The translations under genes and the position numbers were made by a program. 64,000 bases of DNA from Planoprotostelium fungivorum (taxonomy: Eukaryota > Evosea > Variosea > Cavosteliida > Cavosteliaceae), in assembly GCA_003024175.1 (NCBI GenBank), contig MDYQ01000207.1, positions 1-64,000 of the forward strand, in the 5' to 3' direction. Below the pieces are notes generated by a model. That model saw nothing but the letters and a program-made list of their open reading frames with translations, was not told where the DNA came from and did not search any database. Positions 14,441 through 18,177 of this stretch are shown piece after piece (position 1 is the first letter of the stretch; each line of letters opens with the position of its first letter).

Positions 14441-14582
14441 TGAAAAGTTGTTCGAATGACAAGACTATTCCAATGTTTTATCGATAGACAGCAACCGCTC
14501 GTGTCAAAATGTTGATGAAACCTCTCTTCCTTTTGCGAATCCGTTCGCGGATATTTGAGATCATTACAGATCGCCAGCAACG

Positions 14583-15851
14583 ATGAAGTTCATCCTTCAA
14601 TGTTGTTCATATTTTCCCTGCGCCACACCAGGGTTTCTGAAAGCAGTAAAGACGGTGAGACAGTCATCCCGCAATTGCCATCCATCTGAAACGATTCGAA
14701 AGTTCTTTAATGTACTACCTTGGTTGGCTGTTGTCATATATTTTGGAGTGGGATGGTTCGACTTCGTCTCTGTTTGTCTCATAGACATTGAGGAGGGTAA
14801 CGGCGGCAGAGCGCTGCTGAACCTCATAATCTTTCACGTGACAGGAGGTCTATGTATGTGGTCCTATTTCGCCACCGCTCTGGCATCTCCCAAGATGATA
14901 CAATTGGATGTGAGTGATACCCTCCACATTCGACCGACGTCTTTCTCAGGCCGATGAACAAGAAGATTACGAATTTGTCAAAGGAGAGATGGATGCAGCT
15001 CGTGCCGCCTTTGAGCAGAATCCATCAGCGAGGATCTTAGTGCCCAGCTATGTGTCACAGAGACTGTGTAAAAAGTGCACCTTTTACAAGCCAGAGAGAA
15101 CACATGTGAGTGGAGATCGTCCGTGATGTACTGAATCACGATAGCACTGCTCGTGGTGTAACACATGCATCGTGAAGATGGATCATCATTGTGAGATGTT
15201 CTGATCACGAACAATCTTCTCGATTCTAATCTTTCTTAGGTCCTTGGGTGGGCAACTGTGTCGGAGGTCACAAGTGAGTCTCCTCTTACATTCTAAAGTT
15301 TTGTGTGGCTGAGTCATGTTCAGCTACAAGTATTTCGTCTTGTTGTTGTTCTACACTCCAATATTCACTGGGTATTCTGCCGTCTATGGTTTCTATTCTC
15401 TCAGGACAGCAGTGAGCCATCACATCACCATCATCTCATTCTCATCTCTCACCATCACCCCTCTGACGCAGTTCAGGCACAAAACGGTCTTCCTTTCACT
15501 CGCGTCTTCCTTCTGAGCGTCATCGCCATATCACTCTGCATGGGCGTGGCCTGTCTACTCTCCCTCCACCTCTACCTCCTCTTTAGTAACACGACCACTC
15601 TGGAGTTTGGCTTTCTCATCGCAAAATGTTCCGGTTGCTCACCCGCGGTATGCATTCGATATTCAAATTTTCGTCTTCGTCGCGTTTTTGACTCGTTGTA
15701 GATGAGTCCGTACAACAAGGGTTCGTTGAGAAATTTCGAGTCGGTCTTTGGGACGGATCGTAAGCTGTGGCCCTTTCCAATGGAAAATCAAGTCTCAAAA
15801 GTGTCGATCAGGAGACCGATGGACACGAAGACAGTAGTCGAAATGGTGTAG
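14583..15851 (+). CDS. DHHC palmitoyltransferase
   Basis: S-acylates cysteines of membrane proteins. The protein has four membrane segments, two before the catalytic core (VLPWLAVVIYFGVGW, ALLNLIIFHVTGGLCMW) and two after it (YFVLLLFYTPIFTGYSA, FLLSVIAISLCMGVACLL), with the Cys-rich DHHC domain split by introns: SQRLCKKCTFYKPERTH, HCSWCNTCIVKMDHH, CPWVGNCVGGHNYK. The C-terminal MSPYNKGSLRNFESVFG matches the NPYDxGxxxNxxxVFG element (TTxE/PaCCT region) of the family. The last intron ends in ACTCGTTGTAG, one of the recurring intron elements. The protein acts at the Golgi, ER or plasma membrane; which one cannot be told. Confidence 0.93.
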
Positions 15852-16131: not shown

Positions 16132-16443
16132 TTAGATGATGGTACAGCAGCACTCCTCTTGGCATCCACAGCATCCGCAGGACTCTTCACATCCTCCCTT
16201 TAGGTGGAAGGAGAGGTTCACAGTTGACCCGTCGGCAATGTCGTTGTTCATTACGGCTCCAGAGGCGTCTTTGAACATCTATCAAACTCGATCAACCCAT
16301 GCTCCTTCACATCATCCTCTTCTCACCTGATAGCTCTGAGGGACTCCCTTCTGCTCGTAGATCTCGTCCTTGAGTTGCTGAACGTCGCTGGCCTGAGCCT
16401 CGAAGGTCTCGCCGGTGGCTGTGAGGACGATCTTGACTGTCAT
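16132..16443 (-). CDS. Ubiquitin-like protein with GG motif and Cys-rich CaaX tail
   Basis: Two exons (16443-16328 and about 16278-16132, intron about 49 nt) encode 87 residues. The first about 68 form a ubiquitin-like beta-grasp: MTVKIVLTATGETFEAQASD, VQQLKDEIYEQKGVPQSYQ, GSTVNLSFHLKGG. LKGG lies where ubiquitin has LRGG. The remaining tail is CEESCGCCGCQEECCCTII: eight or nine cysteines and a terminal CTII that fits a CaaX prenylation box (Ile at the end suggests geranylgeranylation), with neighbouring Cys that could be palmitoylated. Membrane-anchored ubiquitin-fold proteins (MUBs) of plants and animals share the fold plus CaaX idea, but not, as far as I recall, a GG immediately before such a Cys-rich tail. 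The loop corresponding to ubiquitin 52-60 is shortened. Function is inferred only: a membrane-tethered E2 platform or a cleavable ubiquitin-like modifier. Confidence 0.85.
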
Positions 16444-16675: not shown

Positions 16676-17942
16676 ATGAATCTCGGGGCGGTCAGGGTGA
16701 CCTCCTGCTCTCTTCGTAAGCTCAGGCCCGAAAATCTTTGCCTGACACAGCATACGACCTATCGGAAGCGATCATTGAATGATATCGTGCGCTGCGGACG
16801 TCAGCATTCGACCACATCTTCTATCACGCTTCCTGAGGGTGCAAGATTGATTCAGTTTTCGAATCGAAGACGAAACGCATTATCGTTGGAGTCTCTTCGA
16901 TCCGTTAAGGAACAACTCCTTCAGGCAAACACGAAAGACGGTGTGACGACTCTGCTTCCCGATTTTCTTCCTTCACAGTTACCACCCAGAGATTCGATAC
17001 AAGATAGGTTGTCCATACCCGTTGAGAAGAGAGACTCAATGTGAACAGATGGTTGTGGGATTCTGAAGAATGGAGGAAACAAAGAGGTGGTCTCCCTAGT
17101 TGCCTCGTCATCGCCACAGAAGGACCCGTCTTCTCCAGTGGACACGATCTCTCTGAGATGAAAGGGAAACCGAAAGAAGAGGTGAAAGATCACTTGCATG
17201 ATATCACGTCCGTTGACTCTAGATCAGATCAAAGAGATATTCGACTTGTGTTCCGAAGTGATGAGCCTCATTCGAAGATCACCCTCCGTTGTTATCAGTC
17301 GAATCAATGGGATCGCCACTGCAGCCGGCGCTCAACTTGCAGCAACAACCGACATCGTCATCGCTTCACCATCGTCTTCGTTTGGAACACCAGGTGAGAA
17401 CATATGTTCTAAATTTCTTCATGACATTCTCAACAGGTGTTAGAGTGGGACTGTACTGTACGACCCCCGGGGTGGCGGTGGCGAGGGCGTTCCCGCCAAA
17501 AACGGCTTTCGGCATGTTGGCCACGGCGAGGACTCTCAGCGCAAAGGAAGCACACGAGAAGGGAATGGTCACTTTCCTGTCCAAAGTGGAAGGAGAAGGA
17601 GAAGTACATGCTTTAGACCAGCTAGTCCACGATGTTGCTCTCGACATCACATCGTCAGGTTCTCAAGTGAGATCGATCATCGATCATCACTCTCACATCT
17701 GATGTGAATCGGAGAGGATGAATAGAAAAGGATTCAAATTGTATCTGATGAATTGACAGATCCAAGCGTTAGGAAAATGGTCCTTCTATACTCAGATAGG
17801 AATGAGGGAAGGAGGAGGTGATGGTATGGAGGCGGCTGTGAAGTGGGCGGGAGAGATCATGGCTAGAAACGCAAAGCTAGACGATGCGAAGGAAGGTTTC
17901 TCTGCATTTTTGGAAAAGAGGAAGCCGAGCTGGAAGACTTGA
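16676..17942 (+). CDS. Enoyl-CoA hydratase/isomerase family protein (ECHDC3-like)
   Basis: Crotonase-fold protein, probably mitochondrial: the first 35 residues are basic and Ser/Thr-rich (VTSCSLRKLRPENLCLTQHT). Crotonase signatures: LIQFSNRRRNALSLESLRS (N-terminal CoA pocket), VIATEGPVFSSGHDLSEMKG (oxyanion-hole GHDL), SPSVVISRINGIATAAGAQL and ATTDIVIASPSSSFGTPG (second oxyanion loop). The C-terminal helix ends EGFSAFLEKRKPSW, as in ECHDC3. The family's physiological substrate is unsettled. Introns near 16927-17040, 17189-17230, 17393-17439, 17665-17760; the first of these is approximate because the frame is also open nearby. It diverges from the ubiquitin-like gene with about 230 bp between ATGs. 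Confidence 0.88.
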
Positions 17943-18177
17943 TGAAATAAATGGACTGCTGGTCATGATACTTTCACACTGTCCTCATGAGTTGGATTAG
18001 AGATGGCCCACATGTTCTATTGTTTCTGGCGGAGTTGTTGCACCAACGAAGAGTCCTCAGCACTTAGAGCGCAGTCATTGGAGCCATCATCGGCATCATC
18101 CTGCAGATTCGAAAACACAACTCAAAAGGATGACATTCGTGTTGTCTTAAGGCCAGAAACGAAGAGAAACCGACATT

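Follow-up and report, generated by a model that had tools for sequence, protein, structure and literature searches.

Ubiquitin-like (UBL) proteins are usually sorted into two groups: those that end in GlyGly and are conjugated, and the lipid-anchored MUB/UBL3 proteins, which lack the GlyGly. One gene of the amoeba Planoprotostelium fungivorum belongs to a family that carries both signals back to back. It is located on the minus strand, at positions 16443–16132 of the 64,000-nucleotide stretch of contig MDYQ01000207.1 that we analysed (the window). Are the two signals really joined in one protein, are they conserved together, and could the double glycine mark a site at which the fold is clipped from a membrane anchor?

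Gene structure and ubiquitin fold

The gene contains two exons, which together encode an 87-residue ubiquitin-fold protein. Exon 1 (16327–16443, minus strand) is 39 codons in length; it starts with the ATG at 16443 and encodes residues 1–39, the first half of the β-grasp, in agreement with the NCBI model (PROFUN_00931, hereafter P0001). The intron (16279–16326) is 48 bases long, of GT-AG type (GTGAGA...TGATAG) and in phase 0; it follows a Gln aligned to Q41 of ubiquitin. Exon 2 (16132–16278) contains 48 codons (16278–16135, residues 40–87) and the stop codon (16134–16132), and encodes the second half of the fold, the LxGG motif and the tail. The motif, L65-K66-G67-G68 (16192–16203), is aligned to L73-R74-G75-G76 of ubiquitin. 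It is followed by the 19-residue tail CEESCGCCGCQEECCCTII (16135–16191), which has a CX3CX2CG core and ends in the CaaX box C-T-I-I (16135–16146), so that the translated end of the spliced product reads LSFHLKGG-CEESCGCCGCQEECCCTII. The two-exon model, together with the 12 loci described below, confirms the first-pass annotation, which had read the locus as an 87-residue ubiquitin fold with LKGG and a Cys-rich CaaX tail. Of the eight or nine tail cysteines that it had counted, eight is the correct number. Two further acceptors inside exon 2 are mechanically possible and would give frame-shifted products lacking the tail; the use of either is unsupported.

P0001 is 146 residues in length. It contains all 87 residues at 100% identity, plus an N-terminal extension of 59 residues. 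Because this extension is absent from three complete paralogues, P0003, P0005 and P0006, which begin at the equivalent Met, we consider the likely protein to be the 87-residue form and the extension to be probably a mis-annotated 5′ UTR. The deposited models PROFUN_00188 and PROFUN_07509 (P0002 and P0004) are like PROFUN_00931 in this respect; the three carry unrelated N-terminal extensions of 46–59 residues, all of which are probably mis-translated 5′ UTR.

Both the predicted structure of P0001 and its structural alignment support a ubiquitin (β-grasp) fold. The model aligns to ubiquitin (1ubq) with 26% identity, and the alignment ends with residue 127 on G76; the fold prediction is ubiquitin-like, as proposed. 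In single-sequence searches the best PDB match was weak (E = 1.9e-4) and the Pfam match was not significant (E = 0.11), and it is the profile that makes the relation to ubiquitin clear. UBL3 and MUB structures were absent among the structure matches listed, which excludes nothing. The model of a Dictyostelium relative, with a pLDDT of 51, is too poor for fold assessment.

Paralogues and Dictyostelium relatives

A search of the 36.86 Mb P. fungivorum genome, with the protein as query, returned 18 matches; these fall into 12 loci, the 16443–16132 locus included. Once spliced, all 12 loci give complete proteins of 82–89 residues. Ten of the genes have one phase-0 intron of 41–49 bases and two are single-exon; an intron site after codon 38–40 is common to seven loci. 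The GG and the tail share one exon in all 12 genes; therefore, none of the modelled introns could take out the tail and leave the GG, and every gene model retains the tail. Among the weaker own-genome matches, C216:13815 (E = 0.026) holds no readable family member; further ones are C231:38868 (E = 0.4) and C431 (E = 2.8).

Additional searches, with two other members and one Dictyostelium relative as queries, produced one doubtful further relative, L031 (C234:55600–56300; E = 0.0014 over 37 residues). Spliced so that most of the match is kept, L031 still has the first half of the fold and ends in ...NLSYVDGKVGKKEEKKEKLKKRLQAWKVMYFRQ, lacking LxGG, Cys tail and CaaX. The C-terminal end of L031 is Lys/Glu-rich in place of the Cys tail. 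This doubtful relative is the single result against universal conservation, and both signals are missing together there.

Relatives also occur outside P. fungivorum. A profile built from the 12 proteins, searched against 5.77 billion proteins at E ≤ 0.1, found eight proteins: seven P. fungivorum entries and one from Dictyostelium firmibasis. With the latter as query, relatives in D. citrinum and D. cf. discoideum were recovered; neither search yielded an entry of D. discoideum AX4. Such a protein-database search relies on shared exact words, so absence from other taxa is weak evidence. Planoprotostelium is a member of Variosea and Dictyostelium of Eumycetozoa, two different classes of Evosea. 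The 12 loci and the three Dictyostelium species form the 15-sequence set used below, with protein lengths of 82–101 residues. Both GG and CaaX are present in all 15, which bears out the expectation that close relatives would keep them; the doubtful L031 is without both. A viral or prokaryotic source was considered and rejected: scans of viral and prokaryote contig collections with P0005 returned short patterns (8 and 50 stretches, respectively) and no confirmed relative.

For the nearest paralogue pair, dN is 0.079 and dS 0.83 in the UBL, and dN is 0.044 and dS 0.38 in the tail; both parts are under purifying selection. Synonymous changes in this pair fall in one Gly codon of the GG and in three tail codons.

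The LxGG junction and the Cys-rich tail

L-x-G-G, at ubiquitin positions 73–76, is invariant in 15 of 15 sequences, and its neighbours 72 and 74 vary. On the family tree, no change was counted at L73, G75 or G76, compared with 7 and 6 changes at positions 72 and 74 and a mean of 4.6 over 67 columns; these are the columns with at most 3 gaps of 15, the Dictyostelium tails being partly in the alignment as insert columns outside them. Seven of the 67 columns lack any change. In the sequence alignment, M1, I30, G35, P37, L73, G75 and G76 are identical to the organism's own ubiquitin in all 15. Different from these, R42, I44, V70 and R72 of ubiquitin are kept in 0, 1, 0 and 0 of 15, respectively; residue 72 is H, G, Q, N, P, C, S or D, never Arg. 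This pattern argues against a modifier that is conjugated. Position 72 is the E1-selecting residue of ubiquitin-like proteins. The loss of R72 and of the Ile44 patch would speak against the usual E1s and many deubiquitinases.

As a control, we used other UBL domains of the same genome, namely 17 of the 32 PF00240 matches that are not canonical ubiquitin repeats, drawn from, without exhausting, those that reach profile position 67 or beyond. LxGG at that place occurs in 0 of the 16 non-ubiquitin domains read to their ends; the sole LxGG among the 17 belongs to a ubiquitin fused to another protein. Since the ends were read in unspliced sequence, some may be masked by an intron; the 17 also include two pairs of near-identical copies. 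LxGC-stop is the end of four of the 16 domains, two of which are near-identical, and L-Cys-stop that of one more, suggesting that Leu and the first Gly can persist where there is no GG to cut. The domains concerned lie in L052 (C464:145800–149200), L053 (C162:12900–14700), L054 (C50:2600–4400) and L055 (C99:268000–270000), where the UBL ends in LTGC, LRGC, LAGC (twice, near-identical copies) or L-Cys-stop, so that a free C-terminal Cys takes the place of G76 of ubiquitin. The region N-terminal to the UBL in L055 has no Pfam match at E ≤ 0.001; one UBL in L052 has, by eye, a comparable region ahead of it.

According to PMC12440824, Leu73 is recognised by deubiquitinases in a pocket and is central to activity, and L73P ubiquitin is resistant. 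This recognition and the invariance of L73, G75 and G76 in the family are our main grounds for thinking that a protease reads LxGG and that the motif is more than a hinge.

The CaaX box is equally constant. Cys stands at −4 in 15 of 15, the a2 residue is always aliphatic (I in 14, V in one), and the terminal residue is I or L in 14 and Q in one. In 13 of 15 a further Cys precedes the CaaX Cys, either directly or with one residue between them (CC or CxC), the exceptions being L025 and L026. At the other end, the residue directly after GG is Cys in 14 of 15 and His in L026. The tail is thus most constant at its two ends. The conserved Cys after GG points to selection on the tail, which would not be expected if the tail were routinely removed during translation.

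Between its ends the tail is more variable, with 3–8 cysteines across the family. Of the 15 tails, 13 show the CX3CX2CG spacing, and among the 12 that are 19 residues long, 11 have C82; in the P. fungivorum genome, L025, L026 and L019 depart from the other members in tail length and spacing. L025 and L026 no longer have the CX3CX2C spacing yet keep LxGG and CaaX; therefore, metal binding alone does not explain the tail. The metal-binding alternative raised in the first-pass annotation finds support in the spacing of 13 tails and none in that of these two.

In the best cross-species pair, the tails are identical at 16 of 19 positions and the folds are 25% identical. Tail identity (32–84%) exceeds fold identity (16–29%) in all 27 comparisons of 9 P. 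fungivorum with 3 Dictyostelium sequences, which cover the 19-residue tails only (12 of 15; L019, L025 and L026 left out). The high tail identity is owed in part to shared Cys/Gly richness.

The genome contains prenyltransferase β-type genes at three loci. ICMT-type matches are also found at three loci, and the same Pfam family matches in 5 of 14 prokaryote controls. The CVVQ box of D. cf. discoideum would suit farnesyltransferase. According to PMC1175975, geranylgeranyltransferase I prefers L as the terminal residue, and either enzyme accepts I.

In the window, a DHHC palmitoyltransferase gene (about 14580–15850, plus strand; PF01529, E = 3e-29, exons joined by eye) stands tail-to-tail with the UBL gene. 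We considered this neighbour as a functional partner and rejected it, as the pairing looks unconserved among paralogue contigs: none of the 17 DHHC matches listed is on another paralogue's contig, in an exon-wise search that missed the window's own DHHC gene. The adjacency is probably coincidence, and the enzyme is still a candidate for such a tail. On the other side, at about 16676–17950 on the plus strand, frames resemble by eye a spliced gene of enoyl-CoA hydratase type.

Relation to known systems and possible function

Like MUB in plants and UBL3 in animals and fungi, the amoebal proteins combine a small ubiquitin fold with a C-terminal CaaX and, in 13 of 15, an extra Cys by the CaaX Cys. 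MUB/UBL3 proteins are prenylated, reside at the plasma membrane and dock E2s of the UBC8/Ube2D type. The CCaaX/CxCaaX arrangement is reported for UBL3 orthologues, and the box of Arabidopsis AtMUB3 is given as CTIL, in PMC10511055; paralogues L019 and L026 also end in CTIL. Different from MUB and UBL3, which are stated to lack a C-terminal GlyGly in PMC4996978 (MUBs) and PMC10511055 (UBL3), the amoebal family has LxGG in 15 of 15, and its tail, with 3–8 cysteines, directly follows the last strand. The Ile-centred patch is described as kept in UBL3 in PMC10511055, whereas Ile occupies position 44 in 1 of 15 amoebal sequences. None of the 15 family sequences matches PF13881 at E ≤ 1. We take PF13881 to be the UBL3/MUB family. 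Because LxGG is present, the Ile patch is absent in 14 of 15 and no PF13881 match was found, we do not place the family in MUB/UBL3. Of the profile comparison that the first-pass annotation had called for, ubiquitin versus MUB, the ubiquitin side came out positive and the MUB side negative.

A canonical UBL3/MUB in the genome was also sought and rejected: the three PF13881 matches at E ≤ 1 all fell under the cut-off, in a search limited by exon splitting. The best, C461, lies in a frame of 234 codons whose end is a hydrophobic stretch; the second is a ubiquitin gene extended by basic sequence, presumably S27a-like, and the third is C466.

The family also resembles the GG-processed precursors (NEDD8, SUMO, ubiquitin fusions) in its fold, in LxGG at the same place and in an extension behind GG. 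Compared to these, the amoebal extension is conserved, Cys-rich and CaaX-ended, and the family retains neither R72 and R42 nor the Ile44 patch. As in the ubiquitin-tail fusions Ub-S27a and Ub-L40, a GG-bearing fold is joined to a potentially releasable C-terminal piece; here, however, a fold divergent from ubiquitin carries a short tail that bears a prenylation signal. A further fusion of the ubiquitin-tail kind occurs in the P. fungivorum genome at L001 (C33:72075–75290), where two ubiquitin repeats are fused to a Cys/His-rich C-terminal domain that by eye is AN1-type zinc finger-like. In the literature that our search reached, which leaves out most subscription journals, we met no UBL described as having LxGG together with CaaX. 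The new part is the joining of GG and CaaX, kept across two classes of Evosea.

What might the joined signals do? Our preferred reading, offered tentatively and at somewhat less than an even chance, is that the family is a prenyl-anchored ubiquitin fold with a conserved site of ubiquitin-protease type at the junction, so that the fold could be clipped from its anchor. The protein would be made in the cytosol, and its CaaX cysteine would be prenylated, mostly by geranylgeranyltransferase I because the terminal residue is I or L in 14 of 15. Neighbouring cysteines would probably be S-acylated too, as the motif suggests, and the ubiquitin fold would be held at the membrane. The invariant L-x-G-G between fold and tail would then be recognised and cleaved by a ubiquitin-type protease, clipping the fold from the anchor. 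Lipid anchoring is highly probable from the motif; recognition or cleavage at LxGG, to which the invariance of L73, G75 and G76 points, comes close to an even chance, and conjugation of the freed modifier is unlikely. The membrane-stored, releasable modifier imagined in the first-pass annotation has therefore held up in part: CaaX in 15 of 15 argues for the anchoring, and the invariant LxGG hints at the release. That LxGG cutting would free, and possibly activate, such a stored modifier, leaving a conserved prenylated Cys-rich lipopeptide behind, seems to us rather doubtful.

The GG may be only a hinge. In that case the protein would be a permanently anchored fold like MUB/UBL3 that is never cut, with GG as a flexible link between the last strand and the lipidated, Cys-rich tail; the fold would be a membrane docking surface, or the tail cysteines would modify partners. 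The universal CaaX, the UBL3-like Cys before its cysteine (PMC10511055) and the Cys directly after GG in 14 of 15 all fit this proposal, and UBL3 is reported to act via disulfides of its C-terminal cysteines in PMC6158211. A hinge, however, poorly explains the invariant Leu at −3 beside variable residues 72 and 74, and the stated lack of GG in MUBs and UBL3 and the absence of PF13881 matches also count against it; we regard a permanent anchor as a substantial possibility, if on the doubtful side. Quite unlikely, in our estimate, is a metal, iron-sulphur or redox site in the tail, with C69, C73, C76 and C82 as ligands, the fold as carrier and prenylation optional. The common spacing and the frequent C82 would suit ligands, S-acylation would presumably not need fixed spacing, and the His after GG in L026 would be a usual ligand swap; but metal binding does not need the constant Cys at −4 and aliphatic a2, and the spacing is lost in L025 and L026, where LxGG and CaaX are retained.

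By analogy with ubiquitin, which serves as chaperone for ribosomal proteins, the tail could instead be the product, a cut after GG freeing a prenylated Cys-rich 19-residue lipopeptide (signal or pheromone) for which the fold had acted as chaperone. Tail identity above fold identity in all 27 cross-species pairs agrees with this, but is inflated by the Cys/Gly richness; the L025, L026 and L019 tails vary in both length and spacing, and tail dN exceeds fold dN in 2 of the 4 paralogue pairs with both values computed. We consider a tail product very unlikely. The chance that the combination is accidental or an annotation artefact is negligible: it would have to account for readable gene models at 12 loci, ten of them interrupted by GT-AG introns and two intronless, for purifying selection, for relatives in three other species and for the models deposited at NCBI, and the cross-species conservation refutes it for practical purposes.

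On the doubtful reading of a membrane-stored modifier freed by a cut after LxGG, one and the same tail of a ubiquitin-like protein would serve for maturation and as a lipid anchor that can be released. Cutting at the site would make the tail a regulated anchor derived from a maturation signal; without cutting, the invariance of LxGG would call for a different reason, which would bear on what recognises the motif. The Dictyostelium relatives make the family open to experiment.
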